Positions 10,476-59,572 of a stretch of 64,000 nucleotides of DNA are shown here, piece by piece. The notes beneath the pieces are model-generated. The model searched no databases. It had not been told where the DNA came from and was given only the letters and a program-made list of their open reading frames with translations. A program made the translations under genes and the position numbers. The DNA is from Anadara kagoshimensis (Eukaryota; Mollusca; Bivalvia; Arcoida; Arcidae): NCBI GenBank assembly GCA_021292105.1, contig CM037861.1, forward strand, positions 50,157,920 through 50,221,919. Reading direction: 5' to 3'. Positions within the stretch are counted from its first letter, which is position 1. Every line of letters starts with the position of its first letter.

Positions 10476-13400
10476 GTAAGTACTATAATTTCAACTTTAT
10501 TTCAGTTTGACCAAATGTAATGTGAGTTTTTAACATATCACAGTTTGACTAAAGGTCATATAAGCTTATGGCATAGCACAGCCTATATATTACCTATGTG
10601 CATGTGTACGTCATTAAAACTAGTTTTTGTATGGCGTTTCATGATAGTGAACGCGTACTTTGCTATCGCTTTCTGCCAAGATCGGGCATCTTTTCTATGA
10701 GATTAGTGCGCATGGAAAAAGTGTGCCTGGTAAATGAACGTGAAGGAAATGTATCTGTTTTATCGTAAGATATGTATTCTGAAACAGGTAACGCATTTTG
10801 TTACATATGCACATTTGGAATAAATTTCCGGCATATATTTCGTAATCTAGTAATATATTGCGACGGGATGCAACCAAAAATTTGTGCAATCTGGCAAACT
10901 GATCTCGTAAATACAATAGAAAGTAGTCCAGGAAGTTTGCGTCATATGATGTAAAATCATAACTTTTTATGAAAAAAACAACTATGGCGGGTGAATTTAC
11001 ATAATTCTTTATAAAATCAGCGGTAATTTAAATCTATTTTGAAGGTTATAATAATGTATTTTGGTGTTGAGACATCCTGTCACATTTTAAAACTGATTTA
11101 TCAGTTAGTTTATACTTCCGTGAAAGGGAGATAAATCGTACAGTGTCGTGAGCTAACTGACACTCATGGAATACAAATGTGGATTTGAAATACTTTACTG
11201 ATTTGGAAGTAAAATTAACATGAAACAGGAATATTGTGAGTGATATTCAGAAGTTTATTAAAAACCAGACTTAACATCAAATGATCCAGTTACATACAAA
11301 TGCCAGAATGAACCCCCTCATAGCGACGGTCGGGTCTGCAAAACTACTTTCTCTCTATCCAAAATGACAAACAACCATCAGGTACACATTTATAAAATTT
11401 TATTAAATTTTAGTTACTAATCATTTGATACATTGTTTCTTTTTCAAAAGCATCATCCGTCAGACTTTGGATCGATTGAACCAACACCCCCCCCCCCCCC
11501 CACCACCATTTTCCCAACTACGCCGTACAACAGCACAGCAGTGCTATAGTGCTATGTTTGAATTCTCTGAAAAAGACAGATTTCATTGATTCTTAATCAA
11601 AAACCTTCAGGCTACAAGGATCTGTGTAATTTTGATTTGTTTACAACATTGCTATGGCTACCAAACCTAAATCAGCTTGACCTTGGGATGCAAAAAATTT
11701 AAAATAACCTTCTGTGATATGATGTATTATTTTGCTTCACTGGGGTGTTTGGTATGTGTTATGTTGTGAAATATGGTAGAAAAATTTTTTGTGTTAAATT
11801 TTGAGAATTTGGTAAACACGACTTTATATCAGTGTGTGCCAAACTTTCAAAATGATTAAGGGAAATACAAATAAATGTATTCTGGCCTTTTAAATTATTA
11901 TTGTGTGCTGCGCCTCCCGACCCGTAAAATTCAAAGCAGTGTGTGCATTTCATTACACATTTCTCCTCGTCAAATTGCAACCATGGTCGCCCCTCCATCC
12001 AATGCTGCTTAAATTTTCTTTCACGTTTTCTTCATAATTTGCGCCTCCTATTGCTTTCCGTTTTATTGGTTTCCCTGGAATAGCTCCTGGAACGTATATT
12101 TTTGTAATAACGGAAGTCGGATGGCAATAATAAAATTTAAATTGGATCGGAACTATAAATCCGAATTTTTGGCGCTCTCTATTTTCAGAACTGGTTACCG
12201 GATATACGGTCCGGAAAAATCTGATTTTTTATTGGACCAGCGGTAATTTTATCGGACTTGTCCGACGGTCCGACGAAGTTTGGCACACACTGTTATTTCT
12301 TGACTATATAACATGGGGCTTTCTGTTTTGACATTTACTTTAACATGTTTAAGGCCAAGTGGTACAAATGGACGCTGACGTTACTTAAGTCGTGTAGAAA
12401 TCTATCATTTAAATGGTATTATTCTAAGTCCTAACTTTAAGTATCTGTAATAATTTTGATAAATAACTTGCAGGGATTAAAATACATAATATCAATCAAT
12501 TAAAAATATTAATGAAAATATACAAGAAAAGTACCATAAATACCATTCACGGATAAATTCAACAGATACCAGTGATTCACTAAAGATTTGCCTTTTTATA
12601 CCTTCAATTGATAATGATGTTTTTTCACAAAATTTAATTGATGATATCTTTTTGTCCCCCACTGCAACGCGGAGCGGGGACATTGAAATGCGTTTGTGTG
12701 TCCGTCCGTCACACTTTTTTGTAAGCGCTCTCATGCCTACAAATTTTGACCGATTTTCATTAAATTTATACCAAATGTTTATACTACTAATACCTTAGTC
12801 AAGTTCGAAAATCAGCATTGGTCGATACTTTTTGTTGGAGTTATGGGTGACCGGCGGGGGACCCAGGAATTCTATTCTTGTTTAATATTGTTTTGATTTT
12901 TAAAATTCTTTCAGATTTTAAAAATTTAAAATTTTCATATTTTTCATACTCTATGATTTTTAGCTCACCTGACCATAGGTCATGTGAGCTTATGGCATAG
13001 CGCAGCGTGTGTATGTGCGTGCGTGCGTGCGTGCGTGTGTGCGTGCGTGCGTGCGTCGTTAACACACATTTTCGACTTCTCCTCTGAAACTACTGGACAG
13101 ATTTCAATGAAACTTAGTAAGAAGTATATATGGGTCGGTGCAATTCAGATTTGTTCGTGGCGTTGCCATGGCTACCATAACTAGGTCAATGTGACCTAGG
13201 GGTGCAAAAATCTTAAAAAATCTTCTTCTCCGAAAGTATTGATTGGAGAAAAAATCTGATGTGATATTTGGCTTCTCTAGGGTCTTAAGCCTATAGTTTG
13301 TTCATGTTTTGAAATTCGGACAAAAAATAGGTTACACGTTTTTGCGTTTAATTTTGAAAAAATCGTAAAATAGCTTCAAATTGTTAAAACTTGACTATTT

Positions 13401-16400
13401 GACCAGATAATGACATGGGGTTTTCAGTTTTGACATATTCTTGTAATTACCTTCAAAATGGTGTCAAGGTCAATTATGAAGGTCATGACCTAATTTTTTA
13501 CCTTTCTAATATTATTTATTATGTGGAAAACTATAAACTTTTTATATAGGCATGTATATTAGAATGTTGTAGGTATTGATACAACGATCATTTTGATGTA
13601 TAGAAAAAGGTCATGGGTCCAAAGGTCAAGGTCACAGTAGCAAAACAATGCCAAAATGGTTAATTATCTCGAAAACTGTAAACTTTTTGTATAGGCATGT
13701 ATATTGGAATGTTGTTGGTTTTAATGTAACGATCATATTGATATATAGATTAAGGTCATTGGTTCAAAGGTCAAGGTCACAGATGCGAAAGAATACTGAA
13801 ATGGTCCATTATCTTGAAAACTATTAACTTTTTGTATAAGCATGTATATTAGAATGTTGTAGGTATTGATACAACGATCATTTTGATGTATAGAAAAAGG
13901 TCATTGGTCCAAAGGTCAAGGTCACAGTAGCAAAACAATACCAAAATGGTTAATTATCTTGAAAACTATAAACTTTTTGTATAGGCATGTATATTGAAAT
14001 GTTGTTGGTTTTGATGTAACGATCATTTTGATATACAGATTTAGGTCATTGGTTTAAAGGTCAAGGTCACAGATGCGAAAGAATACTGAAATGGTTCATT
14101 ATCTTGAAAACTATGAACTTTTTGTATGAGCATGTATATAAGAATGTTGTAGGTATTGACACAACGGTCATTTTGATGTATAGAAAAAGGTCATGGGTCC
14201 AAAGGTCAAGGTCACAGTAGCAAATCAACACCAAAATGGTAAATTATCTTGAAAACTATAAACTTTTTGTATAGGCATGTACATTGTAATATTGTTGGTA
14301 TTGATGTAATGATCATTTTGATATATAGATTAAGGTCATTGGTTCAAAGGTCATGGTCACAGATGCGAAAGAATACTGAAATGGTTAATTATCTTGAAAA
14401 CTATTAACTTTTTGTATAGTCATGTATATTAGAATGTTGTAGGTATTGATACAACGATCATTTTGATGTATAGAAAAAGGTCATGGGTTCAAAGGTCAAG
14501 GTCACAGTAGCAAATCAATACCAAAATGGTTAATTATCTTGAAAACTATAAACTTTTTGTATAGGCATGTATATTGGAATATTGTTGGTATTGATGTAAC
14601 AATCATTTTGATATATAGATTAAGGTCATTTGTTCAAAGGTCAAGGTCACAGATGCGAAAGAATACTGAAATGGTTCATTATCTTGAAAACTATTAACTT
14701 TTTGTATAGGCATGTATATTAGAATGTTGTAGGTATTGATACAACGATCATTTTGATGTACAGAAAAAAGTCATGGGTCCAAAGGTCACGGTCATGGTTG
14801 CAAAGAATACCAAAAAGGTTCATTATCTGGAAAACTATGAACTTTTTGTATAGGCATGTATATTAGAATATTGTTGGTATTGATGCAATGATCATTTTAA
14901 TATATAGATTATGGTCATTGGTTTGACGGTAAAGGTCACAGATGCGAGTAGCAAGTTTCATAAATACCTAAATATCTACATCAGAGTTATTGCTCCTTAA
15001 ATGTAGTATTTATTGTGTTTTTGTGCTGTTAACGGCCCAGGTGAGCGGTACAGGCCCTATTGGGCCTCTTGTTTAAATTTAGTTGCAATGACGTCATGAA
15101 AATTTATACTGAAATACCCAGTGTATTTGCAGAATTGCGCACAGAATTTCTGATTGACGTATTTTCGAGCTTCAGTGGTGGTTTTCAGTCACTTTTTTGG
15201 CAAAGTAAAATGTTTTGAATTATAAAGATTTTTTCACTCCAATCAAGATTTTAGGTCTCAATAGTTCAATATCTTTTTCATGTTTTAAATGTAGCTATTG
15301 ATAATATTTCCCAGACTCTGATCTTGCATTTTCGAAGTATCATCTTTGACTCTTATTTGGGATAATAAGGTCTTGTTCTTCTGCTATTCGAAGTAATAAT
15401 GTTTCTGAATATTATTATATCTATCATAATTATTATTCCATAGTGACTAGGAATATAAAATAATCTAATTTATGAAGAAATTTGCATAAAAATAATAAAA
15501 TTTATATACTTACTATAACATCGAGAAGTACAAACACAACATTCCTAGTGTACGGCACGATAATGTTAATTTTTGCAAGTTTGCCAAAAAAAACTTCAGC
15601 AATATCGTAAAAAATCATGACGTTATTGTTAATTTTGGCCATATTTTTGCATCAGATTACGTCTTTAAAGTTTTATACCGAAAATTCAAGCAAGGGGACA
15701 TATGTATTTCTTTACATTTTCAGTAAATTTAAATTCAGAGCTACATTATGTTAGTTTTTCAAAAACTTGTAGGACAAACTGTTTTTTTTTGCTACACTTT
15801 TCCCTATTTTTCAGAGCCTGAAAAGTTTTTTTGCTACACTTTTCCCTATTTTTCAGAGCCTGAAAAGTTGCGATTTCCTATTAATCCTATGTTAAAATCC
15901 TGACATTTTTTACATTTTTGACGCTTTATAGCTAAAAAAGTAAAAAGGGAACCCCTATATTTTTTTACATTTTCAGATACGCCTCAAAAAGTTTCACAAG
16001 TATGGAAAAAAATCAGAAACTTGTAGGATAGTGCCTATTTGTACCACTTGGCCTTAAGGGGTCAACACTAACACTAGCCCGCTAGCCAGAGGCTAGTAAA
16101 AATTGGTCAGTGCTAGTGAATTTTGTATTACCAGTAGCCCATTGGGCTACAGTGTCAAACCCTGTGAGTGTTCAAATACATGTACCCTCTTCTTAATTTG
16201 ATTGCCATTTACAGTTCCAATTATCTGAAACTTTAGATAAACTAATTTCATTTTCTTGTGGATGTCAAGATATATAAAAAAATGTATATGAACTTCTTTA
16301 TAGCAACAAAGACTTTGAAAAATTCAAAGCTGACAGTGCTGCACCAGAAATAGATACAAAACATGAAGAAAAATCTGTAAAACATTCAGAAGAAGACGAG

Positions 16401-29861: not shown

Positions 29862-32800
29862 TATACAAATGTTAAATATTTTACAAGGTATAGAATTTAC
29901 AATTTTTCCGAAATATTTTTGTATGGACATGAATGGTGCTGATATGGTTACTTTTAATTTTGATATTGTGTGTTTATTTTTTTACTTGTTAGTAATTCTT
30001 AATTAGATTTTACATGTATTTTTTAATTCTTTCCATAGATTATATCAATGTTGTATTTCTTAGTGTTTATTTTTCAATTTTTCAAACCCTTAACATTTTA
30101 ATTAGGTAATTTAGTATGCAATTTTTTTAATATTTGTAACTAAGCCTCTGTGATGAATATTCTTGTCAAAAAATGTCAAATTTAATTAATTTTTACGCAT
30201 GAAGATTTCAACTTCCCACCCTTGGACATTGCCCCTCCCATGCAAGTTTTGAATTTGCATGTTTTGTAATGTATTTTATTAATCAAATTGAACACTAAAA
30301 CAGTGTGTCTTTAAAGATGAATTAATCAATTTTGGATTTGGATTTTTTTTTTTTTTTGTATATTATTTATAATATATAAGAATGTAGCTAGCTAATACAG
30401 TGTCACAGTAAATTAATATATTTATATACAGGAATGGCTGCAAATTAAATAATCTTAACCAAAATATAGTTACATACGTTTTTGTAGTAACATAATAAAA
30501 ATGGGTATGTTTAACAATTCAAAAATAAAAATTAGCAGAATATTACCACAGTGATTGCATTGAATAAGTGGTGATAAATATTGAAACTTTTTAACATAAA
30601 TATCATGTTATATGTAGGTTTAACATATTATATGACTATAAGAGAATTGTGTAATAAATTATCAATTGTTATATCATTTACTAGTATTTTTTTGTCACAT
30701 TCAGCGAGAAAATAATGAGGTCACAATGGGAGAAGATAGCATTTTCAACAAGTTAGGCGAAAGTGGACTTATTAGTTTTTCTGACTACATATTTTTACTG
30801 ACCGTTTTGTCAAGTAAGTAAAATATTTTGTTTATCACTGAATGATCATAAACATATTAATATAAACCTGTCTTAACAAATTTTGATGTTTCTATACATT
30901 TCTTGTAATATTTTAGTCTTGGTCAGAATTTCCCAACTAGGGACATATATGCATTACACATCAATCAACTTAGTTGATAAAACTTGTATTTTTGGACAAG
31001 ATAAATGTTGTCCCAGCTCTTGGTCAGTATTAACAAAATGGCAATACCTGTATCCCAAACATCAATATCATTAGTTTGGTATCCTACCAATACCAGACTT
31101 GGTCTGACCCAAGGCTTGTAAGTTCTTTCACCAAGCTCTCTGCATTGTGAAATGAAAGTCACTGTTCTTTCGGATGCGAACTTAAAATAAATGAGGTCCT
31201 GTGTGACCGTAGGTGTGGCATGATAAAGAACCCTGCTGTATAATGTCATCAGCACAATGCACAGGTAAAATTTCTGCACCTTTACTTATAGGTGGCGATG
31301 TCTTGATATAAGTGAAATATTCTTGACTGGGACATTAAACACTATTTTCTCAACTTAACTCTTCCCAATACACCATACCCAATACACCATACACTAACAC
31401 AGTGATGTTTACTGTGATAAATACTGTAAATGGATAAAATAATGAATTAGATCACATTATAATGATACTAAAATCTTCATAAACTCTAACATATTTTATT
31501 AGTTTTAAAATTTCAGTCAAGAAAATGTCACATGTAGAGTCAAAACCAGCTAAAAACTAGAACTGTCTCTTGAGAGCCAACTACCCCCCCCCCTCCCCAA
31601 TTTAATGTTTTCCCACAACCTTGACCTTTAAGATATGACCTTGGTTTAAGGTCATGACACACCTTCGGACCATGAAGATTTTTCTTGTAAAGTTTTATGA
31701 CTGTCATCGAAAGCAGCTATGGGATATGGTCCGGATGTGATTTTACACGGACAGACAGACAGATATGGTGATTCTTATATTCCCCCTCAAACTAGTTTGG
31801 GGGGTGGGGGGGGGGGGTATAATTATTTACAAAACTTGTCAGGTAGATTATGTAGACAAAAAGAGGCATGATTCATATAACTTGCATGTATAATGAATTG
31901 ATTCTATCAGGAAATTTTTGTGAACTATATAATTATATATATTTTAAATTTTATATTGCAGCTCCTTCCAGAAATTTTCAGATTGCTTTCCAAATGTTTG
32001 ACCTAGATGGTAATGGAACTGTTGACTTTGATGAATTTATGAAGGTGAGTGAGTTAAATAGGGGTTATATATTCCTGGCAGTCATGTTAGATTTTACATA
32101 TATCATACTTGCCTAGCCTTTCTTGAGACTAGGAGTATGTTTAAGTAAATTTTTATCGTAAGTTTTACAAAATTGGTCGTAAGGATTCCCTGTTTGACTT
32201 ATGCTGTATAATACTTGGGTTTGAGTTTTTGATCCCTTTTTTTCATTCCTCATTTTAATTGGCAGCTAAAGATCCTGATTTGCAGTTAAAGATCATCACT
32301 TTCATGACCATGACATTGAAAAGCCATTTCTAAACAAATGTACAACACTGGATCCTCCCAGATTTGTGCTCTTGTACAGTTTAAACCTACCTGTATCATA
32401 TACATAGGAGATTATATCCTTCTACTGGTATAAACATCTGTTTTAATTTATAAGTGTTTTATTAAGATGTGTTGGAAGTTTGCTTGTTTAACTTAATTTG
32501 CAGCTATTTTTGCCAGTTTTCAAAATTTTTACTTTTCTTTTGGAATTGTGATTTTGACATGGCCTGGTTTGTTTATGTTTGATTTGATTGATAAATAGAT
32601 GCACAGACTTGTAGCAGCTTTTTTAGCTCACCTGAGCCGAAAGGCTCAGATGAGCTATTGCTATCTATCACCGTCCGTCGTCCGTCGTCCGTCGTTCGTC
32701 GTGCGTCGTCCGTCGTGCGTAAACTTTACATTTTAATCTTCTCCTCCAAAACTACTGAGCCAAATTTGATGAAACTTGGTAATTATTATGCCTGGGTAAC

Positions 32801-35800
32801 AGACTTTCAAAATTGTGTTCGGGGTGTGACCACGCCCAACAATATGGCTGCCGTTACTATAAATAGCAAAAAGACAAAAAAATCTTCTTCTCTGAAACCA
32901 AAAGGTGCAGGCAAATTTTGATTGGATATTTGGATTCAGGATACCTAGATACACTAAAATTGTGTTTTTCATGAAAATTGAACGAAAAATAGGTTACGCG
33001 TTTTTTGCGTAAAATTATGTAATTTTTAAAATGAGACATTTGTTGTTATAACTTCATAATGGCTGAAGATAATTGTATGGAGTTTTCACTATTGATCTTG
33101 TCTTGCGATTTTCTTCCGATTGATGTCAAGGTCATGTCCCAGTTTTTGACCTTTGATAAAAAATGCTATTTTTTAAACATTTCTGGTGATAATGATGTAG
33201 GATTTTTGGTTAATTGTAGGTATTGACATGACGATCATTTTGATATATCGATTAAGTTCATGGGTTCAAAGGTCAAGGTCACAGATGTACAAGTTTACCA
33301 AAATAGTTAATTATCTGCAAAACTATGAACTTTTTGTATAGGCATGTATATTAGAATATTGTAGGTAATGGCCCAATGGTCATTTTGATATATAAATAAA
33401 GGTCATGAGTTCAAAGGTCAAGGTCACAGATGTAAACAAGTACTGAAATGATTATTTATCTCTAAAACTATAGACTTTTTGTATAGGCATGTATATTAGA
33501 ATATTGTAGGTAATGGCCCAATGGTCATTTTGATATATGAAAAAGGTCATGAGTTCAAAGGTCAAGGTCACAGATGTGCATGAATACCTGAATGGTTAAT
33601 TATCTTGAAAACTGTTAACTTTTTGTATATGCATGTATATTAGAATATTGTAGGTATTAGCCTAACAACCATTTTGATATAGGAATGAAAATTATGGGTT
33701 CAAAGGTCAAGGTCATAGATGTGAACAAGGTCTGAAATGATTATTTATCTCAAAAACTATAAACCTTTTGTATAGGCATGTATATTAGAAAATTAAGGTA
33801 TTATCCTAATGATCATTTTGATATATGAATGAAGTCATGGGTTCAAAGGTCAAGGTCACAGATGTGAATGAATACCTAAATGATTAATTATCTTGAAAAC
33901 TATTAACTTTTTGTATAGGCATGTATATTAGAATATTGTTGGTACTGGCACAGTGGTCATTTTGATATATAAATGAAGAGCATGGGTTCAAATGTCAAGA
34001 TCACAGATACAAACAAGTACTGAGATGATTTTTTATCTCAAAAACTATAAACTTTTTGTATAGGGATGTATATTAGAATATTGGCCGAATTATCATTTTG
34101 ATATTTGAATGAAGCTCATGGGTTCAAAGATCACAGGTGAGCGTTAAGGCCCATGGGCCTCTTGTTTCAAAATATGATGATATGCTTTTCATTATTTAGG
34201 TACAAAATGTTATTCAAAGTCAGACCAGTATGGGCAAACGTCACAGAGACCATTCAACTACTGGCAGTATAGCTAAAGGTGTTGGTTCTGCTCTTTGCAC
34301 TTACTTTTTTGGAGCAGAGAAGAAGAGGAAGCTTACTGTAAAGGAATTCCTTGAATTTCAAGAGCAAGTGATTAGTGAAATTTTGAGGATTGAGGTAAAT
34401 TGCATTCACTTTATAGTAAAACTTTTCACTGCTTTGGACTGAAATACTGACTTTGTGTATTCAAAGGGAAAAGAAAACCCATTCAGACAATACATTTACC
34501 AGTTTCGTTTTAAATTTGGAAATTCCCAATGGGGTTCACTGTTGTTGCACATGATTCCCCTAACATTTACTAATGCGGAAAAGTGATCTCCATTGGACAT
34601 GGAATCATATCAGTTCACGTTTTCCTGTAAAAACCTCATGTTTGCCTTGATTTTGTGACATAAACTTTTTTCGAAAATGTCCTGCACAAAACTTAAGGGG
34701 ACAAGGCCAAACCACATTTGCATAAACTTTTGTGTCATAAATTTCTGAAGTCATATCCATTTACATACATGTATTGTATCAATTTCAGTTGTGGCTGAAA
34801 CGGCTTAAAAATAGGACAAAATTTTGATTAAAAAATATAAATGAAATTATTCAAGTTTGAGCTCATTTCATCTTGTGATCATTGAGGCCTGTTTATATTT
34901 AGAATTTGTCAAGAAAAAATCAAACTTATAAACCATAGTTATAGACAATCTATCTAGGATTTCTTGTTGGACATACATACAAATACTTATTGACAGTTCA
35001 CTTCTATGACACACTATTAAATAAATTAAGAAAATAAGATAAATTGTAAATATCATTAGATATAAATATTGCTGACTTATCAATATTTTACAGTTTGAGA
35101 GGTATGACCCTACTGATGGTAAAATAACAGAGAAAGATTTCGGAGTAATTTTACTAACTTACGCCGGTTATCCAGCCAGCAGAAAAAGTCGCATGTTAAA
35201 ACGAGTACGCAAGAAGTACAAGGAAGAACCACAGGTAAGAAATAACATGAAGCCATGACGACCTGTCATGCCACAGGCAGAACCATATTCCACTAACAAG
35301 CGATATAATATTCTTTCATCACAATCTTGCATTGAGTCACCTTACAATTTTTTTGCAAGCAGGTGAAACAATCACAAAATTCTGACAGGTATATGTGAAC
35401 CCTTGCTTTAGAAATGTAAACAGAGCATTTACCAACTCAATATCAGGAACTTGTCAATGGAGTTCGCCACTGGACCATGTGATAACCTCTACCATTTGTG
35501 CAGAGCACTTACTTCTAATTCATATGGCATCGCATAAAACAACATTATTCTGTAAATTTGCCATCTTAACGTTTTTCAAAACGTTCCGCACAAATGTTAA
35601 GGGTTTTGATCACATGGTACAGTGAGGAACCTCATTGGTTGATAAAATTTAGTAATTGCTGTTATTTTCCTGAATTAGAAAATATCAAATACAAATTCAC
35701 TTGTCCATAGGAACAGATTACAAAGGATTTATTTGTTGAATATTTTTTCACTTGTCTCAGGTTGTCCGACTACTAATAATGTGGAGCCCTGATATGATTT

Positions 35801-41955: not shown

Positions 41956-42553
41956 TGGTATAGGTAAACAACATTGACATGTCTGCTTGACTATTAATTT
42001 AAATATTTAAAATGGATCAGTTCATTTATGTGTAGGGAACTCGGGCATTCATTTCCTGTACTACATCATGAGTGATACTGACTTTAAAGAGTAGGCAAGT
42101 GCACTGTGTATGTATTAACTTGAATCTTAACACTACCCGTTTATTGAGTGGATCATCTAATAAAAGGTCAAGTGAACAGGTCAATATTGTTTGCCTATAC
42201 ATATGGTAGGATTGATCTCTTTCAAGTTAATGTTTTTTCTACACAGTAATTAGATTGGCTTTCTGATCTTTTCTATATTTATTTATGTAATATTAACCAT
42301 GTATAGGCAAACAACATTGACCTGTCCTCTTGACCTTTGATTAGGAATATTCATTTAGAAGGATCCACCCAGTACATGGGTAATGTTAAGATCCAAGGTA
42401 ATATATACACAATGCACAGGTGCACTCTATGAGGCGAGTGCATCTCATGATGTATTCAAAATAAACACCTGTGTTCCCTTTACACAGATGTACTTGGTCT
42501 GTGATATTTAAATGAAAGGTCAAACAGACAGGTCAAAGTTGTTTGCCTATACT
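41956..42553. mobile_element. Two adjacent ~250-bp TIR elements sharing a GTATAGGCAAACAA end
   Basis: The end motif GTATAGGYAAACAA occurs four times with alternating orientation (about 41958, 42187, 42301 and 42538). This outlines two inverted-repeat elements, 41956-42202 and 42299-42553. Inverted similarity continues inward (ACATTGACCTGT...CTTGACC). The facing halves of the two elements (42090-42208 and 42296-42432) also pair over more than 100 bp. Non-coding. Confidence 0.65.
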
Positions 42554-43580: not shown

Positions 43581-45316
43581 TTTTTAGCTCACCTGAGCCA
43601 AAGGCTCAGATGAGCTATTGCAATCTATCTTCGTCCGTCGTGCGTCGTGCGTCGTCCGTCGTGCGTCGTGTGTAAACTTTACATTTCAATCTTCTCCTCC
43701 AAAACTACTGGGCCATATTTGATGAAACTTGGTGATTATCATGCCTAGGTAACAGCCTTTCAAAATTGTGTTCGGGGTTTGGCCACGCCCAACAAAATGG
43801 CCGCTGTTACTAAAAATAGCAAAAAGACAAAAAAATCTTCTTCTCTGAAACCAAAAGGTGCAGGCAAATTTTGATTGGATATTTGGATTCAGCATACCTG
43901 GGAACAGTAAAATTGTGTTTTTCATGAAAATTGGACGAAAAATAGGTTACGCGTTTTTTGCATAAAATTACGTAATTTTTAAAATGAGACATTTATTGTT
44001 ATAACTTCATAACGGCTGAAGATAATTGTATGGAGTTTTCACTGTTGATCTTGTCTTGCAATTTTCTTCCAATTGATGTCAAGGTCGAAGGTCAAGGTCA
44101 TGTCCCAGTTTTTGACCTTTGATAAAAATGCTATTTTTTTTAACATTTCTTGTGATAATGGTGTAGGATTTTCAGTTATTTGTAGGTATTGACATGACAA
44201 TCATTTTGATACATAGATCTGGGTCATGGGTTCAAAGGTCAAGGTCACAGATGTCCAAGAATACCAAAATAGTTAATTATCTGCAAAACTATGAATTTTT
44301 TGTATAGGCATGTATATCAGAATATTGTAGGTAATGACACAATGGTCATTTAGGTATATGAATAAAGGTCATGGGTTCAAAGGTCAGGGTCGCAGATGTA
44401 AACAAGTACTGAAATGGTTAATTATCTCAAAAACTATAAACTTTTTGTATAGGCATGTATATTTGAATATTGTAGGTATTGGCCTATCGATCATTTTGAT
44501 ATATGAATGAAGGTCATAGGTTCAAAGGTCAAGGTCATAGATGCAAATGAATACTTAAATGGTTAATTATCTCAAAAACTATAAACTTTTTGTATAGGCA
44601 TGTATATTGGAATATTGTAGGCATTTGCACAACAATCATTTTGATATATGAATGAAGGTCATAGGTTCAAAGGTCAAGGTCATAGATGCAAATGAATGCT
44701 TAAATGGTTAATTATCTCAAAAACTATAATTTTTTTTGTATAGGCATGTATATTAGAATATTGTAGGTATTGGCCTATCGATCATTTTGATATATGAATG
44801 AAGGTCATAGGTTCAAAGGTCAAGGTCATAGATGCAAATGAATGCTAAATGGTTAATTATCTCAAAAACTATAAACTTTTTGTATAGGCATGTATATTGG
44901 AATATTGTAGCCATTTGCACAACAGTCATTTTGATATATGAATGAAGGTCATAGGTTCAAAGGTCAAGGTCATAGATGCAAATGAATGCTTAAATGGTTA
45001 ATTATCTCAAAAACTATAAACTTTTTGTATAGGCATTTATATTGGAATATTGTAGGTATTAGCCTAATGCACATTATAATATACAGATGTTTTAGCTGTT
45101 TATAAATAATATATTGTAGCTAGACTTTAAATATGTTATATATAGCATACTTATATAATAATTATTATAATTGATTTGCAAAAATACTTGCATATTATTG
45201 GCCCTTACTGCTGAAAATTTTGATATTCTCTTTTATTAATGTCATTGACCATTGAACCTCTGCATAAGATATGTGCTCTTCCTCAGGTGAGCGTTAAGGC
45301 CCATGGGCCTCTTGTT
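43581..45316 (+). mobile_element. Hairpin-capped array element, copy E2b (with extra 3' segment)
   Basis: Same opening hairpin, CGTCGTGCGTCG run and leader as E2a, then about six ~145-bp units (44180-45060) with TTCAAAGGTCAAGGTCA. After the array is a ~220-bp non-array segment (45070-45285). The closing sequence is GGTGAGCGTTAAGGCCCATG then GGCCTCTTGTT. The extra 3' segment is also present, inverted, in E4 (about 50155-50330) but not in E2a or E3. Confidence 0.87.
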
Positions 45317-47784: not shown

Positions 47785-48203
47785 GCAGGGGTTAAAAATT
47801 AGGTTTTGTACTGGAAGCTCCAAGACTTTTCAGCTTTGTTTTTCGAAAGGTCCCACATAAAGTGTTGAAAATCCAAAATCATTATTGAAAGGTTTATGAG
47901 GAATATGTTGTTATGTAGAAAAAGAAGTATTATCCTGATAAATAATATAAATCAATAGGTCCTGGACCTAGAACCTGGGGAATTTTGAACGCAGGGGTTA
48001 AAAATTAGGTTTTGTACTGGAAGCTCCAAGACTTTTCAGCTTTGTTTTTCGAAAGGTCCCACATAAAGTGTTGAAAATCCAATATCATTATTGAAAGGTT
48101 TATGAGGAATATGTTATTATGTAGAAAAAGAAGTATTATCCTGATAAATAATATAAATCAATAGGTCCTGGACCTAGAACCTGGGGAATTTTGAACCCCT
48201 GAA
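47785..48203 (+). mobile_element. CAGGGGTT-ended MITE with internal tandem duplication (206 bp x 2)
   Basis: Bases 47785-47990 are repeated at 47991-48196 with only about two differences. The outside ends are CAGGGGTTAAAAATT and AATTTTGAACCCCTG, an inverted pair. The flanks on both sides are AATTG, a 5-bp target duplication. The tandem copy therefore arose within the inserted element. Non-coding. Confidence 0.8.
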
Positions 48204-48226
48204 TTGACAACAATATAATTATGTAC

Positions 48227-48415: not shown

Positions 48416-48875
48416 ATACAAAACAAAGACAAATATAATGAATAGTAACAAACAAGTCTTGTTGTAATCGATGATGTAGAGAGATTTTTCACACCACTAC
48501 ACAAATGTCACACAATTCATGAAAAACTATTTATTACTAGTACTCCATGTTATTGATCAAAATCATATATAGGAAACAAAATTGTTCTTATACAATATAG
48601 TTCATTCATTATTTGATTTTCACCAAACTTTTGTGCTCTGGAATGTTTACCATCCATTTTCACAAATAACTCACTTTATATCAATAACATTTTAATATGG
48701 ACAGTAATTGTCATACATGTAGATGTGTCTGTTCATACAACCATGAATTTTATCGTTTTCCAATAGCACAATTACACAATAGAAAAAGAAGGTTGACTGT
48801 GTAAAATCTTTATTTTGTAAGATTACAAAGTCATCTCAGAATGCTGTTTAATTAGGATTACCCATGGCATTATAT

Positions 48876-49510: not shown

Positions 49511-50092
49511 GATTATTGTTCATTCTTCCTCCCCCACACATACCCAATGTTACCCCCACCCATACCTCTGTTCATTCCTCCACCCATGTCCCCTCCCAGA
49601 CCAATCCTCACATGCCTCAAGCACCCATACCCCCACTAATGTTGTTGACACCGTAACCTTCCACTTCTTATGTAGATCATGTTGCCTGAAAAAGAAAAAC
49701 CATGACAAATTAAAAAGCTGTAACTAAGTAAATCAAAGTACCATATGTGTCCAATGAACAGAGGGTGAGAACAAAATGCAAGTCATAATTCCATGATGGT
49801 GTTAAACTTGCAACTAGAACTTGTTCTAACCTAATACTGTAAACCAACTTTTATTAATGGATATTTCCTTTCACAATTCTCTTACCAAACCATGAGGTGA
49901 AGCAGGAGTAGCATGCAAAAGAGCCATCCCTGTACATTACCCTGAGCATATTACAAAGGTTAAACACTTATTTAACTATTTTTGAATTTGTTTGTCTTTT
50001 AAACAGCAAGCACATTCTAGGAACCAGGATCCCCTGCTAGCAGGCTTTGCACTAATGTTCAAAAGGCAAAGAGTCACTGTTACTATAAATAG
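49511..50092. other. Intergenic, C-rich then AT-rich
   Basis: A CCCAC-rich stretch (49530-49640) gives proline-rich frames without a family match. A SINE-body-like piece (CATCCCTGTACATTACCCTG) lies at about 49926-49946. No gene. Confidence 0.5.
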
Positions 50093-50803
50093 CAACAAGG
50101 GGCCCATGGGCCTTAACACTCAACTGAGGTGTGTACATATCTCATACGGTTCAATGGTCAATTACATTAATTAAAGAGAATGTACAAATTTTCAGCAGTT
50201 AGGACCAATATGCAAAATTTTTGCTAATTAATTATAACTTGTTCTAAGAATACTATAAATAAAATATCTGAAGTCTTTTATCTAACGGTACATCTTAAAT
50301 AGTAAAAGCAAAACTACAAACATACAAAAACTAGGCCATTTTGGTATTTGTTTGCATCTGTGACCTTGACATTTGAACCTATCACCTTTATAATTATATC
50401 AAAATGATCATTATGCCAATACCTACAATATCCTAATGTACATCCCTACAGAAAATGTTTATAGTTTTCAAGATAATTAACAATTTCAGTATTTATTTAC
50501 AGTATAACCTCCAGAAACTGAATCCTTTGAAAACTAAATTCCTGTCGAAACCGTCCGGATCCGTCGGTCCCAATTTTTTACCCTTTATTCTATATGTTAA
50601 AAACCTTAATAAAACCGAACCCTGTGGATTCTGAATATAATTTTTTCAGGAAAAACCCGTTTGGTATGCAATATTTGACCTGTGAAAACCGATCGTTTTT
50701 TTTTTTCAAGTTGCATCATTAAAAATGAAAAGTTATGCAATAATTTTATGTTCGATTAATCAAACGGATAAAAATAAAAAATACATTAAAGGTTTATTTT
50801 TAT

Positions 50804-52620
50804 AACAAGAGGCCCATGGGCCTTAACGCTCACCTGTGACCTTTGAACCCATGAGCTTCATTCAAATATCAAAATGATAATTAGGCCAATATTCTAATAT
50901 ACATCCCTATACAAGAATTTTATAGTTTTTGAGATAAATAATCATCTCAGTACTTGTTTGTGTCTGTGATCTTGACATTTGAACCCATGCCCTTCATTCA
51001 TATATCAAAATTACCACTGTGCCAGTACCAACAATATTCTAATATACATGCCTATACAAAAAGTTAATAGTTAACCATTTAGGTATTCATTTGCATCTGT
51101 GACCTTGACCTTTGAACCCACGACCTTCATTCATATATCAAAATGATCATTAGAATAATACCTAAATATTCTAATATACATGCCTATATAAAAGGTTTAT
51201 AGTTTTTGAGATAAATAATCATTTCAGAACTTGTTCACATCTGTGACCTTGACCTTTGAACCCATAACCTTCATTCATATATCAAAATGGTTGTTAGGCT
51301 AATACCTACAATATTCTAATATACATGCATATACAAAAAGTTAACAGTTTTCAAGATAATTAAAAATTCAGGTATTCATTCACATCTGTGATCTTGACCT
51401 TTGAACCCATGACCTTCATTCATATATCAAAATGATCGTTGGGATAATACCTACAATATTCTAATATACATGCATATGCAAAAAGTTAACAGTTTTCAAG
51501 ATAATTAAAAATTCAGGTATTCATTCACATCTGTGACCTTGACCTTTGGACCCATGTCCTTCATTCATATATCAAAATGATCGTTAGGATAATACCTAAA
51601 ATATTCTAATATACATGCCTATACAAAAAGTCTATAGTTTTCGAGATAAATAATCATTTCAGTACTTGTTTACATCTGTGACCTTGACCTTTGAACTCAT
51701 GACCTTTATTCATATATCAAAATGACCATTGGGCCATTACCTACAATATTCTAATATACATGCCTATACAAAAAGTCTATAGTTTTTGAGATAAATAATC
51801 ATTTCAGAACCTGTTTACATCTGTGACCTTGACCTTTGAACTCATGACCTTTATTTATATATCAAAATGACCATTGGGCCATTACCTACAATATTCTAAT
51901 ATACATGCCTATACAAAAAGTTCATAGTTTTGCAGATAATTAACTTTTTTGGTAAACTTGTACATTTGTGACCTTGACCTTTAGACCCATGACATTATTC
52001 GATATATCAAAATGATCGTCATGTCAATACCTACAATTAACCAATAATCCTACGTCATTATCACCAGAAATGTTTAAAAAATAGCATTTTTTATCAAAGG
52101 TCAAAAATTGGGACATGACCTTGACCTTGACATCAATCGGAAGAAAATCGCAAGACAAGATCAACAGTGAAAACTCCATACAATTATCTTCAGCCATTAT
52201 GAAGTTATAACAATAAATGTCTCATTTTAAAAATTACATAATTTTACACAAAAAACGTGTAACCTATTTTTCGTTTAATTTTCATGAAAAACACAATTTT
52301 AATGTATCTAGGTATCCTGAATCCAAAAATCTAATCAAAATTTGTCTGCACCTTTTAGTTTCAGAGAAGAAGATTTTTTTGTCTTTTGGCTATTTATAGT
52401 AACGGCAGCCATATTGTTGGGTGTGGTTACACCCCGAACACAATTGTGAAAGCCTGTTACCCAGGCATAATAATCACAAAGTTTCATCAAATTTGGCTCA
52501 GTAGTTTTGGAGAAGATTAAAATGTAAAGTTTATGCATGACAGACAATGGACGACTGACCACGGACAGTGATAGATAGCAATAGCTCATCTGAGCCTTTT
52601 GGCTCAGGTGAGCTAAAAAT
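50804..52620 (-). mobile_element. Hairpin-capped array element, copy E3 (nested)
   Basis: Minus-strand copy. The terminal hairpin is at 52582-52613 (AGCTCACCTGAGCC / GGCTCAGATGAGCT on its own strand). The leader runs about 52060-52560, followed by about eight units (50830-52050) with TGACCTTGACCTTTGAACCC on the plus strand. The closing GGCCCATGGGCC is at about 50810. Closely similar to E2a and E2b and so relatively young. Lies wholly inside the 50499-57867 element. Confidence 0.87.
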
Positions 52621-53164
52621 GTACTGTGAAAAATTACACACATCAAGAAGAGATCCATTTTGTAAAAATTCAAATAATAACATGCTTCTAATCGATACAG
52701 TACAATAGTTTATAAAGTTTTAACAATAATCTATTTTCTCGTTGTATTTTTGTTTGTGTATTTTGTTTTAAGCTACCTGACTGTCAGACAAGGCGTTTAA
52801 TCAAAACAAACAATAGCAATCTTAATTACCAATCAAGAAACAATACTGCTCAACTTTTTGTCGGACAGGTGTCAGTAACACTCGGAAAATGGGAACCGGT
52901 TAAATTTTGTTTATTCAGGTCAGGTGTGCATTTGGTTGTATATCTAAAACATTTGAAAGATCAAAGGCACGCTTGAGGCTTTGTTACAACATATCACTTC
53001 GCAACAAACTGTATCTCCATTTCATAAAGAAAATCACATTTTTGTGCAAACAATGCGAATTTATTATTTAGAAAACCGAAAAGGACTATAAATGATAAAG
53101 AAACAGATCGGCCGAACAGATATCCCAACCTGCATAGACACATCTTGAAAATGCTAATTTTTCA

Positions 53165-53800
53165 CTCGAACAAAGTCACTGTGTATTGAAGCGACATATC
53201 GATTCCCCATGGATTTTTATTGCAAGTTTGAAGTACTGACAGGTGTCACATTTACAAATACCATTAATTTGACCATTAATTTCTCCCGAAGAAAACCATC
53301 ACTGTGGTACAGCGTACACATATTAAAGCATAAAATGAGCAAAACATCCAGTGTAAACAACACCAGCGGAGTCGAAAGCCGATTTTTGACTTATCTGTTC
53401 ATTTTAACATGTGATGGTGTATTGGGGCATCAATCGGACACATAAACGTTTCTATTGAAATAGTTAACTGCATCTGATACACTGTTTAAACTTTAAAACA
53501 AATTGATAAAGCGCAAGTGCTCACCTGTGATTTTGCCGTGGCCGGGAGTTTGTTCAATATTTCAATTTTCACTTCTTGATTAAAAATTCTGAAGCGTACA
53601 ATTCCTCTAGGATGCTAAGAACTACATGTCGACCAAATTTCAGCTCAATGTATTGCGAAATAAAGGAGCAGGAGACGTTGAAAGATCGACGTGGTGTACT
53701 GGGAATTGATTCTCATCACCGGTTTAGTGTACTGGGAATTGCAAAATTACGGTTACCGGGAATCGTGTATAACATTATTTTCAAGTCCCAATTTTTAAAG
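53165..53800 (+). repeat. Left arm of a ~0.6-kb inverted repeat
   Basis: Pairs with 57066-57712 in inverse orientation. Shared words include AAATGAGCAAAAC, GTGATGGTGTATTGGGGCAT, ACTGCATCTGATACACTGTT, TTGATAAAGCGCAAGTGCTC, ACATGTCGACCAAATTTCAG and AAAGGAGCAGGAGACGTTG. At the inner end are three spaced copies of a TACTGGGAATTG motif (about 53698, 53729 and 53756). The frame at 53209 and others are not conserved between arms and are not called genes. Confidence 0.8.
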
Positions 53801-55009
53801 AAATTGGGGATTGCGAATGTATGATACAGTTTGTATGCATGGTGCATACAATAATAAATAAGTTTCACTGTGCAAGTTTATATTAGGTGTTCATAGTAAA
53901 GGCTCTAACCTTGATTTCAAAATTGAATTAGGTAGATCGCCAATATTAAGAGACATAGAGTGATTCCATAGTTTCATTAAAATGTTTAACACTTAAGGAT
54001 ACCCAAACTAATATGGTATCCACACTAGGAAAATATGACCTTCGAATTTAAAAGTAAAAATGTGGGTTGTGGGATTTAAACGCAACAGAAAGGCCCTTGT
54101 TCTAGAAGGTCTGTCATTGATGCAACCCCAGAAAAGGTCAATAAAGTTTATATTGTTACGACTGACAAGCGAGGTACAGAATGGTATGTAGCTAGTTGGC
54201 ATTTCACAGGGAATACATGTATTACATTTAATTCTGACAGAAAATCTTGCAATGAGAAATGCTTTCAGTTGGGTACCAACTTACCAAGGCATCTGACAAT
54301 TGGTCAGAAGCACATCAAGTGCACTTTGTTGTGTGCTTTTTTAGAGATAAGCTATGTATTAAACGTGGGTTTATCAATTCACCCCAGTGGCCAAAGTTTA
54401 CACTTGGTCACCCTGAAAAAAGACCAATACTGTTACATCAGCTGGAGAGGGTATGACCTCGGCTTCCAGTGATGCTGATCATAATCTGGTGGTAGGTTAG
54501 CTCCAAAAAGGACAAACAATCAATGACACATACTATTCATCACTTATGATGCAGTTACGGAAAATTATTAAATTCAAAAAATGACGGAAAGCTCAGTAAA
54601 GATGTGCTGTTCCGCTAAAAGTAGCCTATTTAAATCAGACAAATCTTAGGAAATAATAGTGAAACTGCAGCCAGTTGGTGCTTGGTATATGTGTAATACC
54701 TTATTTTTATTATTATTAGTACTTGTTATTGTCTATAGAATGATTAAAAATTGTCGATTCAAGGTAAAATATATCACGTTTTAAACAGCATCACTTATGA
54801 GTGGTCGGAATTGTGCACCGGTAACGTTATCAGTATGTAGGTTGCATTTACATAGAACATACTGGCTTCAATAAACAAGCTGTTCTTATTTAGAGGTGGT
54901 CTTTACGTTAATGCCACTAGACTCAAAAAGACAATATAGGCATTATAGAAACATGTATGTAGAATGTGTAGAGTTTTTTATATCTCATTTTACGAGCGAC
55001 CATCCTAGT
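53801..55009 (+). other. Interior of the inverted-arm element, unassigned
   Basis: About 1.2 kb with short frames only (for example 54259-54456). No family recognised. It may hold a decayed gene of the element. Confidence 0.4.
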
Positions 55010-55019
55010 ATCCCATTTC

Positions 55020-55270
55020 AGATTGAGAGGCCGCGGTTGCCTAATGAATAAGACATCAGTCTACAAAACAAACCCAGGGTTTCTCACCGCTGTGTGTTCG
55101 AGTTCCACTCAGACCACATGCGGGAAAGTGATTTTTCCTTGCCATTGGCCTTTACTGGTTTACCTGGTATCAGTATAATGTGCCTGGGGAGTGGTACGCT
55201 TGTCTGCGGCATACTGACTCTGTGAGCTGGCACGTTAAAGTCGCCATGAGTGCGCCCTAGTACAAAACAG
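55020..55270 (+). mobile_element. tRNA-derived SINE
   Basis: The head GGCCGCGGTTGCCTAATG ... TAAGACATCAGTC and a good B-box GTGTTCGAGTTCC resemble a tRNA with a long variable arm. The body follows with TTTACTGGTTTACCTGGTAT, CTCTGTGAGCTGGCACG and TTAAAGTCGCC. Inserted in the interior of the 50499-57867 element. Confidence 0.7.
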
Positions 55271-55894
55271 ACCATAAAACACACTCGTACTTCACATGCA
55301 TACACGCACGAACTTGTTCATAGATTAATAAAATTAATAGTTCTCGTCGCGAATAGCTGGAAAATTGCTGATGCGACGTTAACCAACCCCAACCATTTCC
55401 GATTGTCCGACACGGCCCTTATTTTTGCGCCTTGTTTCAATACATGTTTTATACCCGGATACAACATTACACGCGTATCGAGGTGTCAGTATAGTTTTAG
55501 GCACTTTTTTGCAGAGCGTAACGGGATACATATTTTTGAGTTGCACATCCAATATTAAGGAATTAAAAAAAATGTATATAATATTTTAGTGCATTATTTC
55601 TGAAATGTTATGGTTATGATAAACTAACAGGCCAAAAATGACAGCGTCTAAAAACTGGAAATTTTGAATACATGTAGATGAAATTTGAGCTTTCATCGTG
55701 GATTTGCAGAAAATCGAATCGGTTGACATTAGGATTTTTTCTATATTATTTGATAAAACTATATTTGCTTTCTGAACACATTAATTTAAAAAAAATCTAT
55801 TGAGCGGATTTTTGAGAACCAAAGCATCAGTATACGGCGCCTTGTTGAAGCATTTATGTCAAAAGATGATTTTCTTTTGCGCCTAAAGACAATA

Positions 55895-56390
55895 AAGCAC
55901 AGAGTCGTCAGTGGATAGGGCCTGGGTCCCCTAGGCCAAAGAAGGTTAAAAAGCATTAGTCTACTGGGAAGGTGATGACCACAGTATTTTGGGACGCAAA
56001 AGGTGTTATTGTGTGTGACTTTTAACCAAAGAGAAGTACAATGATAACTGGAATGCACTATGCAAACTTGCTAGACCACAAGAGAACTGATATCTGTGAA
56101 ACCGCCGCAACAGGACAAAGCAAGAGTACACAGTTGCAAAGTTACAATGAAGGCTGTGGGGCGAAATACCACCATCTGCCTAGCTAGTAGCGACTTCTTC
56201 TTTTCCCAAAATTGAAAAATGATACCTGAGGGCATCATTTCAGGTCTGACCAAGAAGTCATGAAGACAGTTGAGGAGTGTGTCAATGGAAATGACCCTTT
56301 CTTTTTCAGATCTGGGGTGATGGATAAGTGCATCACACTAGAGGGCACTGAATTACATCAAGTTAAAAAGAAGAGGTGGATCTAATCCGG
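55895..56390 (+). pseudogene. Mariner-family transposase relic (C-terminal part)
   Basis: Broken plus-strand frames contain, in order: GPGSPRPKKVKKH, STGKVMTTVFWDAKGVIVCD, HYANLLDHKRTDI, SDFFFSQN and DKCITLEGTELHQV. These match the order of motifs in mariner transposases, where the VFWDAxG aspartate is a catalytic residue and KCITLEGxY closes the protein. Stops and frameshifts are frequent and the HTH N-terminus is not found. Non-functional. Confidence 0.75.
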
Positions 56391-57065
56391 AAAAGAGGTT
56401 AAGCTGGTTTCTTATTGATTGGCCCTCGTAAATAAAAATTCAAAATAAACATATGACACTATGAACTATGTTTAACATGTTAAAAATGAAAAAATGTGTT
56501 ATATTGTTAAAACTTTTTATTTATAAATCAGTTTCAAGACGTTTGATTTTACTCTCGTCTCATTTGTGGATCTGTTTAACACCAGATACCTCCTTTCGAC
56601 GACTGTCTCATCTTGACCTTTGATATAAATAAGTCATATTTTAGCTGGTCGATTCGATCTAATGACATTAGGTTAAATATTTTAAAAGATTTCTCAAATT
56701 GTAATCTTCATTTTCCTGCACAGTTCCAAACTACAAAGTTTTTTTCTTTACTTTCACTAGTTGCACTTGCTATGACACCGTCAAACTTAAACAATTTAAG
56801 AACGGATTATGTTTTGACATTACACATAGGCCTTTGTAATGGTTTAGTAAACACTTGGATCTCTCTCAATCTACATATATCGGGGGAAATGTGTGTTAAA
56901 GATGTGGTCTATGTATGTTTCATCCACATCTCGTCTATATTGCATTATTAATAATTACAGATGTTGAAGATTTTCACTAGATAATTAATTGTTTTGTTTG
57001 TCATTGAAAAACAAGTATAAATTCTATATAAATTCATTAAAACATGAAAATCGCACAGCTGGCAA

Positions 57066-57712
57066 GATATTTGAATCCTCAATTCCCAGTACACCTACTT
57101 CCTCCTTAATTGCCAATACCCAGTACACCTTTTTGCAATTCCCAGTACACCGCATGTTATCATCCAACGTCTCCTGCTCCTTTATTTCTCAATACATTGA
57201 GCTGAAATTTGGTCGACATGTAGTTCTTAACATCCTAGAGGAATTGTAAGCCTCAGAATTTTTATTTATCAGGTGAAATTTGAAATATTGCAAAGAAACT
57301 CCCGGCGACGGCAAAATCACAGGTGAGCACTTGCGCTTTATCAATTTGTTTTAAAGTTTAAACAGTGTATCAGATGCAGTTAACTATTTCAATAGAATCA
57401 TTTATGTGTCCGATTGATGCCCCAATACACCATCACATGTTAAAATGAACATATAAGTCAAAAATCGGCTTTCGACTCCAGCTGGTGTTGTTTACACTAG
57501 CTGTTTTGCTCATTTTATGCTTTAATATCCCGTGTACGCTGTACCACAGTGACCATGTGCATCAAGGCATGTGGATGATGCAATTGTGCCGTAACAGCTC
57601 GACACAACTTTTATTTCACTTTATTTAAAATTACATTTTCAAAATAAAATGTCAAGTTCATTTACAACTGTCAATTTCATTAATACACAGAGTGGCTTTG
57701 GTCACTACATAC
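57066..57712 (-). repeat. Right arm of the ~0.6-kb inverted repeat
   Basis: Inverse of 53165-53800. At the inner end are three copies of CAATNCCCAGTACACC (about 57080, 57110 and 57136), the mirror of the TACTGGGAATTG motifs in the left arm. The outer end carries TAATACACAGAGTGGCTTTG against CAAAGTCACTGTGTATTG in the left arm. Confidence 0.8.
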
Positions 57713-57956
57713 GGCAATAATACATCCCAAGGGCGCTAATTTCCATTGATTCCTCCATAGTCATTAGGGGCAAATAACTCTTGGTTAAACCTTTGTACAC
57801 CAAAACCTGTCAAAACCGAATGTTTTTCCCGGTCCGGAGGACCATAGGTTTTTGGAGGTTATACTGTACATCTGTGACTTTGACCTTTGAACCCATAACT
57901 TTCATTCATATTACAAAATGACTGTTAGGCCAATACCTACAATATTCTACTATATT

Positions 57957-58345
57957 GTACTTTGTACAACGAAGTAGGCTGCTTGCAAATAAATTGTTGA
58001 CCCAGGGATATTGCAAGCCTAGGCTTATCAAGGCCCTCAAAAAGTTTTATGGCCGTCATCACAGTATTGTTGATAAGTTTGATGTCTCTGTGTCCAGGAT
58101 TGCCTTGGATATATTTGACGTCTCATAGTTCCATGTTCCTTTCACACAATTTTGATTACACACGTGACGGGTGTAGCTAGCTAAACAGGAGGTGCTTACC
58201 CTTCCGGAGCACCCGGCCTCACTTCCCTGGTGGAAGTTCACGTGTCTAACCTAACTTGTCAGTTCCAAAGTTTTTACTTTGCTTCTGGATTGTGATTCGG
58301 AAATGGATAAGTATGTTTGTTTTTGAATATATTTCTAAACAAACA
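57957..58345 (+). pseudogene. 3' end of a reverse-transcriptase element inside E4
   Basis: The frame reads RLLANKLLTQGYCKPRLIKA, then LKKFYGRHHSIVDKFDVSVS and RIALDIFDVS before a stop at about 58125. The following AACAGGAGGTGCTTACCCTT tail matches the 3' part of the relic at 46124-46440. Here the C-terminal frame is intact, but only the last part is present. It is inserted between two array units of E4. Confidence 0.75.
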
Positions 58346-59572
58346 ATTTTTAGTTTTTTAGGCAATTACCCATTTCAGTATTCATTTTCATCTAAGACCT
58401 TAACCTTTGAATTCATGACCTTTATTCATATATCGAAATGATCATTAGGCCAATAGCTACAATATTCTAGTATACATGGCTATATAAAGAATTAATAGTT
58501 TCGCAGATATATAATAACGATTTTGGTATACTTGTGCATCTGTGACCTTGACTTTTGAACCCATGACCTTGATCTATGTATCAAAATGATCATCATGTCA
58601 ATACCTACAATAAACTGACAATCCCTACAGTAAACTAACAATCCCATGCTATAATCACCTGAAATGTTAAAAAACTGTGACATGACTATTACCTTTGATC
58701 AATTGGAAGAAAATAGCAAGACAAGATCAACAATGAATATATATACAGTTATCTTCAGCCCTTGTTGAGTTATATCAATAAATATCTCATTTTACAATCA
58801 CAAAATTTTATGCAAAAAAACCCTGCATAACCTAGTTTTTGTTCAATTTTCATCAAAAAACACAATTTTAATGATCTTGAGGTATCTTGAATCCAAAAAT
58901 CTAATCGAAATTTGCCTGCATGTTATGGTTTTAAGAGATTTTTTGTCTATTGGTAATTTTTAGTCACAGCAGCCATCTTAGGTGTGGCCAAACCTTGAAC
59001 ACAATTTTCAAAGCCTGTTACCCAGGCATGATAATCCGCCAGTTTCATCAAATTTGACCAGGTGTTTTGGAGGAGATGATTAAAGGTAAAGTTTACCCAA
59101 GATGCACGATGGACCACACATGATGGACAGTGATAGATTGCAATAGCTCAACTGAGCCTTTGGCACGGTGAGCTAAAAACCTGTAAATGGCCACAACAAC
59201 CTTATATGTACAAATGCCATAAGAATTTTAAATAAAGAAAAAAAAAACTCTGGGTATTAAACATATGTAACATGTTTTTCCATAATTATAGTTTCTGTAA
59301 TATTTATACAATATGAAAATAAGGTGTATTTCAGCCTAAATCTTCTCTGAAAGTACTTGGTCAATTGAAACAAAAATTGGCTTGGAAGATCCTTGGGTGG
59401 TAATAAAATGGCAGCAAATGACAATCCAAGCAAACAAGACAACACTAAAATTTCGAAATAAATAAGTGTGCTTATAAATTTTCTGGACAGACATTGTATG
59501 TAGTAAATGCCCATTGGTGTGGTTTTAGACCTATTAAATGGCCCTACGACCCCAATTATTTTAATTTCACTG

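Follow-up and report, generated by a model that had tools for sequence, protein, structure and literature searches.

The window analysed here, 64,000 nucleotides of contig CM037861.1 of the bivalve Anadara kagoshimensis (assembly GCA_021292105.1, positions 50,157,920 to 50,221,919 of the forward strand; G+C 32.6%), holds coding exons of the mitochondrial gene MICU1 and, in and around that gene, transposable elements with tandem arrays of a roughly 145-bp unit. A 15-nucleotide stretch of the unit, CAAAGGTCAAGGTCA, resembles a nuclear-receptor binding site, and it evolves two- to threefold more slowly than comparable regions of the element. Judged by their architecture, the five window elements are non-autonomous Helentrons (HINEs), a kind already described from bivalves; this known kind appears here with an unusual, and probably selected, array of predicted receptor-type sites.

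Elements E1 to E4 are complete and share one order of parts: a TTTTTAGCTCACCTGA start with a hairpin, a GTCG or GTGC microsatellite, a left module of about 500 bp, the array, and then CAGGTGAGCG, a palindrome GGCCC..GGGCC (generally GGCCCATGGGCC; GGCCCTATTGGGCC in E1) and CTCTTGTT. E1 (12957-15073, plus strand) is of subfamily B, with the hairpin AGCTCACCTGACC and a GTGC microsatellite; its array of 11 units or fragments (13463-14979, plus strand) has the 145-bp period common to the window arrays and also a 290-bp higher order. Subfamily A comprises E2 (32620-34166, plus strand), E3 (43581-45316, plus strand) and E4 (50804-52619, minus strand), whose arrays, each on the strand of its element, hold 7 (33209-34148), 7 (44178-45089) and 9 (50822-52041) units or fragments, with the unit order of E2 largely that of E4. 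The preliminary description had counted five array elements, which holds for E1 to E4; the fifth, E5 (57857-59178, minus strand), is a degraded HINE with a diverged 5' end, no recognised 3' end, an interruption and only three partial or diverged units (57857-57948, 58335-58615), and we add a sixth element, present as its 3' part with two unit fragments (50095-50510, minus strand). The window arrays thus hold 39 units or fragments.

The assignment to HINEs is supported by both ends and by the centre of the elements. A 5' subterminal inverted repeat (subTIR) with its complement, forming the hairpin, was recognised in 17 of the 26 arrays that we collected; its halves are AGCTCACCTGAGC..GCTCAGATGAGCT in subfamily A and AGCTCACCTGACC..GGTCATGTGAGCT in subfamily B, with small variants. 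In E1 to E4 a 3' subTIR complementary to the 5' one is followed by a palindrome near the end, and GTCG/GTGC runs and the 145-bp arrays provide the microsatellite and central tandem array of a HINE. The 5' end of E2 folds at -14 kcal/mol, which none of 200 shuffles equalled; its 3' segment folds no better than shuffles (40 of 200 equally good). As seen in the element copies, E1 to E4 are bordered by TTTTT on the 5' side and by TT on the 3' side. Both subfamilies carry the same kind of 145-bp unit, and left-module identity between them is 57% (alignment of 9 A with 5 B elements). By eye, distinct units follow a common order in E2, E4 and three elements elsewhere, with some units missing, and because unit order is shared between elements, arrays appear to travel as whole modules.

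Related elements outside the window vary on this plan. At locus L033 a HINE with an A-type 5' end has a largely different left module, suggesting module exchange, and L070 shares its variant 5' end. HINE flanks at L012 recur at a period of about 4.7 kb, and its 10 kb contain three nearly identical left modules, of which the third is cut short by the end of the locus. A HINE-like element at L016 (8540-9300), apparently of an unrelated family, has ends TATACCACC.., a palindrome GTCTC..GAGAC (by eye) and 151-bp units; it too has clustered half-sites, such as TTTCAAAGGTCAGGAGGTCA, a possible convergence.

MICU1 coding exons, matched on the plus strand with a human MICU1 query, span 16362-41442, the N-terminal exon not being established; the exon at 34203-34394 matches MICU1 chains in PDB (E 4.8e-18). 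E2 sits between MICU1 exons, its 3' end (34166) about 30 bp ahead of the exon starting near 34200, and E3 lies some 2.1 kb beyond the final coding exon that the query matched. Two elements had been placed in MICU1 introns and one just downstream, and for E2 and E3 this stands; E1 precedes the first matchable exon and is only likely to lie inside an intron.

The predicted sites recur in the window far beyond chance. The 16-mer TCAAAGGTCAAGGTCA, allowing up to three mismatches, matches 47 times against 0.91 expected in shuffles, and TCAAGGTCA occurs exactly 35 times against 0.76 expected; exact 16-mers number 13 on the plus strand and 4 on the minus strand. The observation of receptor-type site arrays is confirmed. 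Copies also stand in left modules: E2 has TCAAGGTCA 147 bp ahead of its first array copy (33126-33134, plus strand), E4 has TCAAGGTCAAGGTCA 147 bp from the nearest array copy (52116-52130, minus strand), and E3 has a copy with one mismatch to the 16-mer (44085-44100, plus strand). The left-module sequence GTCAAGGTC is one of several islands common to subfamilies A and B. Nearly every unit had been said to carry the core, which is true of close variants but not of exact copies: of the 62 units from the window and the genome sample whose core columns are complete, 36 have the exact 16-mer and 47 the exact TCAAGGTCA.

The element family is not confined to this locus. The exact 16-mer occurs 74,309 times in the 1,115,223,567 bases of the genome and its reversed control 0 times; a second 16-mer of the unit occurs 64,202 times, and exact HINE 3' ends 9,083 times. 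The genome average is about 67 exact sites per Mb, so the window, with 17 in 64 kb, lies above it. Units were present in 3 of 20 regularly spaced 10-kb samples, one of which (L024) has four arrays, and at least as dense a grouping as five clusters within 64 kb is also seen in the first 2.5 Mb of C1, where the cluster counts, taken from the matches listed, are lower bounds. A special link between the arrays and MICU1, as first proposed, is therefore not borne out: the elements are genome-wide, their clumping is ordinary elsewhere, and position is the only support for a role at this gene. Scans for two unit patterns in viral contigs gave 0 matches, and a 19-mer scan of genome contigs hit 4 bacterial contigs, about the chance number.

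Two broader signals were set aside. A strong general excess of AGGTCA was not found with the elements masked (169 observed against 95 expected under a first-order model, 232 kb; rank 107 of 4096 hexamers), and close AGGTCA pairs, fairly common in other repeats too (rank 18 of 2860), were not used as evidence. A separate dispersed repeat carries AGGTCA pairs spaced by 7 bp (GAAAGGTCAAG..ACAGGTCAA) at window positions 42165, 42318 and 42517, and at L010 8793, L011 4585 and L023 492.

We compared the core with the rest of the unit in 193 units or fragments from 26 arrays, drawn from the window, a 200-kb sample and loci picked for containing the motif. The search was seeded with 21 window units bearing the exact core; degraded units should not have been missed, because the window arrays are contiguous, a point on which the analysis relies. 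Plain divergence is 0.039 in the core against 0.131 (67 units, window and sample), and because homogenisation inflates this contrast we instead counted parsimony changes per column on a tree of units, with columns of the same base as the null. Core ranks obtained before end correction (12 of 144 and similar) were flawed by alignment ends trimmed at the unit seam, and in the main runs the unit ends were filled, ungapped, with adjoining bases; a second run used a rotated frame.

By this measure CAAAGGTCAAGGTCA is the slowest-changing stretch of the unit. With ends filled it shows 1.27 changes per column against 3.71 (58 units, window and sample), ranking first of 144 windows with 0 of 10,000 draws as low; in 168 units the values are 2.8 and 6.36, and in the rotated frame it ranks first and second of 141. 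The depletion persists without end filling (1.33 against 2.98, p 0.0009, 57 units; rotated, 1.60 against 3.67, p 0.0002, 61 units) and with CpG-affected columns removed (1.27 against 3.39), and it is present on internal (0.2 against 1.01) and terminal (1.07 against 2.39) branches. It holds separately in the 32 window units (0.80 against 2.23), in 110 units from motif-picked loci (1.60 against 3.62, p 0.002, rank 4) and in 26 sample units (0.67 against 2.23, p 0.0001, rank 4 of 144), the last being the cleanest result because those units were unseen when the motif was proposed. Change in the unit is faster at G and C columns than at A and T columns; the G+C-richer CAAAGGTCAAGGTCA changes least. 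The proposal that the core is better kept than the surrounding unit is thus upheld after correction for homogenisation and base composition, and replicated in the sample units.

Arrays found by other routes carry the core as well. Four arrays fetched by the second unit 16-mer contain 19 units whose core is free of gaps, of which 15 keep CAAAGGTCAAGGTCA, and two more whose core is gapped; a subfamily lacking the core, suspected from arrays absent among the matches listed for the 16-mer, was rejected on these arrays. Six elements were picked by the 3' end alone, with no core nearby among the matches listed, and 5 of them have arrays bearing AGGTCAAGGTCA. Some conservation is seen in a second stretch, ATCATTTTGATATAT, too (p 0.012 to 0.028 over four tests). 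A further block, TATAGGCATGTATATTAGAATATTGTAGG, appeared conserved early on and was rejected, since the unit seam fell there and local alignments trim mismatched ends: its p values are 0.24 and 0.12 in the rotated frame (0.12 and 0.046 with ends filled), and 0.996 and 0.86 in the first frame with ends filled, where ungapped filling may itself add false changes.

The conserved footprint CAAAGGTCAAGGTCA consists of two adjoining AGGTCA half-sites in the same orientation (a direct repeat of zero spacing, DR0) and a 5' CAA extension. The preliminary description had read a DR1 of the HNF4/RXR type overlapping an extended half-site of the ERR/NR5A type, and the two readings fare differently. The DR1 is unsupported, because its 5' half, GGGTTC, changes about as fast as expected (3.17 against a null of 3.80, p 0.25, 58 units; 6.17 against 6.51, p 0.41, 168 units). 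Neighbouring half-sites are likewise not conserved, the upstream AAGGTCATGG being near the ordinary rate (3.5 against 3.7). The extended half-site recurs far beyond chance and lies in the slowest-changing part of the unit once homogenisation and base composition are corrected for. NR5A and ERR receptors read the extended half-site TCAAGGTCA. A DR0 of AGGTCA is the site of the receptor NR6A1, described in the available part of one source as a germ-cell repressor (PMC10909835). The footprint would thus fit receptors of the NR5/ERR type and perhaps of the NR6 type.

Receptors of fitting classes are present in the same genome. It has 109 zf-C4 matches, and 20 of these exons were fetched and labelled by best match to reference domain sequences: they include ERR (93.9% over 33 residues), HNF4 (91.8%), COUP-TF (92%), RXR (80.7%) and two NR5-like exons, the NR5A-like L055 (76.6% over 47 residues) and L047 (60.9%). 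A further receptor, L052/L053, runs on into a nearby exon with the sequence KAVREDRMPGGRNSGAVYNLYKV, which has an MPGGRN extension; in a PDB search, with the exon junction guessed, its nearest matches were NR5A2 (86 bits) and then NR6A1 (78 bits), and an NR6A1 query matches its exon at 57% over 51 residues. We take the MPGGRN-type tail to resemble that of insect HR4, of the NR6 group. Among L052, L053 and L063, two near-identical receptor DNA-binding exons lie on one contig, one of them beside the exon with the HR4/NR6-like tail.

We suggest, tentatively and at a little short of an even chance, that this conservation arises because the element is under selection to be bound by a host receptor (NR5, ERR or HR4/NR6-like). 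Each unit of about 145 bp carries one composite candidate site, CAAAGGTCAAGGTCA, to which such a receptor would bind, and the roughly 5-10 sites of an element would open chromatin or aid its transcription or mobilisation. The arrays would act where the receptors are expressed, perhaps in the germ line or early embryo, and any effect on MICU1 or other host genes would be a by-product.

Several results weigh against this explanation. The site is more constrained than its surroundings over the unit tree, but the comparison that best approximates change after insertion, between the closest units of different elements, gives fewer core differences without reaching significance (5/180 against 67/1304, p 0.20, and 4/360 against 66/2627, p 0.13; an earlier version of the test agrees). 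Singleton states are not depleted in the core either, and we do not use that count, which old variation biases. At least five elements carry propagated copies of a unit whose core is broken (TCAAATGTCAAGATCA or a single base different), and the sixth of the elements picked by 3' end is a remnant of about 200 bp with both ends and almost no array. Non-autonomous elements can, moreover, move without being transcribed. On the statistical side, ungapped end filling can introduce spurious changes elsewhere in the unit and thereby raise the null, while tree noise, recombination and the small number of independent windows per unit (about 10) weaken formal p values; because the motif was also nominated beforehand from the window copies, rank 1 alone is weak evidence. 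As to the receptors, the NR6A1 query has its best match at the HNF4 locus (55%) and finds no clear NR6 gene, and the oyster is reported, in the part of that study available, to be without NR6 (PMC4070562).

Conservation of the 15-mer says only that something reads the sequence, and it is possible, though in our judgement doubtful, that the reader is a Helentron replication protein, another DNA-binding protein or the placement of nucleosomes, the receptor likeness being incidental. That ATCATTTTGATATAT is also somewhat conserved and that several left-module islands are common to both subfamilies would fit such constraints. The unit length of about 145 bp is close to that of a nucleosome, which counts for the same explanation. 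Against it, the 15-mer exactly matches a well-known extended half-site, as well as the DR0 described in part of one source (PMC10909835), both of one protein family whose fitting classes are encoded in the genome; and because the element with intact ends has almost no array, the unit is no obvious requirement for replication.

Nor is a selected function needed in principle: a founder effect followed by HINE spread, with the low 15-mer rate arising from mutation or gene-conversion bias or from alignment or tree noise, would leave a similar picture, and we regard this as unlikely without dismissing it. Because an array spreads as a complete module that keeps its unit order, its copies are not independent of one another; recent differences between copies are not significantly depleted in the core; and trees from 144 columns with recombination are rough, one apparent conserved block having been largely an alignment artefact. 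The 15-mer depletion nevertheless holds in three disjoint sets of units and survives base matching, removal of CpG columns and the split into internal and terminal branches, and it runs counter to the faster change of G and C columns. A bolder form of the receptor explanation, in which the Helentron array is a receptor-docking enhancer whose roughly 100,000 selected sites (an estimate derived from the 74,309 exact TCAAAGGTCAAGGTCA copies) recruit a germ-line NR5/NR6-type receptor and titrate or rewire its network genome-wide, seems to us improbable as it stands.

That the arrays are host regulatory clusters with which ERR, PPAR or HNF4-type receptors tune MICU1 and further mitochondrial genes is highly improbable: E2 between MICU1 exons, E1 probably in an upstream intron and E3 just downstream, with ERR-type sites intact, speak for it, but with 74,309 exact sites and 9,083 exact 3' ends the elements are genome-wide, clumps occur elsewhere (four arrays in L024), the DR1 part is not conserved and post-insertion depletion in the core is not significant.

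The most economical account would remain that one receptor-type site in a satellite-like array has been under constraint while the family spread. Elsewhere in the window, an open frame at 61878-62207 matches DDE_1 (PF03184, E 1.2e-6) and is probably part of a DNA transposon, and recent tandem duplications lie at 8816-9458 (321 bp, 100%) and 47785-48196 (206 bp, 99%).

A literature search for the site in bivalve satellites, or for receptor sites in molluscan transposons, gave nothing on point among the matches listed, most subscription papers lying outside its reach; two apparent matches to the site in bivalve satellites were polymerase chain reaction primers. In the oyster, HINE arrays are abundant and have been described as satellite-like repeats (PMC7492417, available part). 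A study of oyster chromatin by assay for transposase-accessible chromatin (ATAC-seq), in the part available, dropped repeat-overlapping peaks before analysis (PMC8149454), so relevant accessibility data may already exist.

The elements described here closely resemble Cg_HINE of Crassostrea gigas, compared by description from the available part of its report (PMC7492417): a 5' subTIR with an internal inverted repeat, a GTC-type microsatellite, a central array of satellite-like units of about 140-180 bp in fixed orientation, a 3' subTIR with a palindrome, probably T-rich insertion sites, and modules shared or exchanged between elements. That part notes "two relatively conserved sequence segments" in the Cg_HINE monomers and does not mention receptor-type sites; it ascribes the same architecture to Pearl, DTC84 and MgE of bivalves, with central repeats of about 160 bp in Pearl. 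The DINE-1/HINE elements of arthropods, as partly described (PMC4067079), share Helentron-type ends, a microsatellite, central repeats and probably TT insertion, again with receptor sites unmentioned in that portion. On the side of the sites, AGGTCAAGGTCA is a DR0 as for NR6A1/GCNF in the portion available (PMC10909835), and TCAAGGTCA is by its consensus an NR5A/ERR extended half-site; known sites of both kinds lie near host genes, whereas the predicted sites here lie in transposon arrays. Should the 15-mer prove to be a receptor site, a single element family would have spread places where one class of host regulator can dock through the genome, in the tens of thousands, and there would be a concrete reason for the persistence of some satellite-like units. 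The ISX element of Drosophila miranda is a Helitron. Like the family proposed here, ISX is a transposable element that spread binding sites, in its case for a host chromatin complex; the available part of that report describes functional binding sites (PMC4384637), where the Anadara arrays offer constraint on the sequence.

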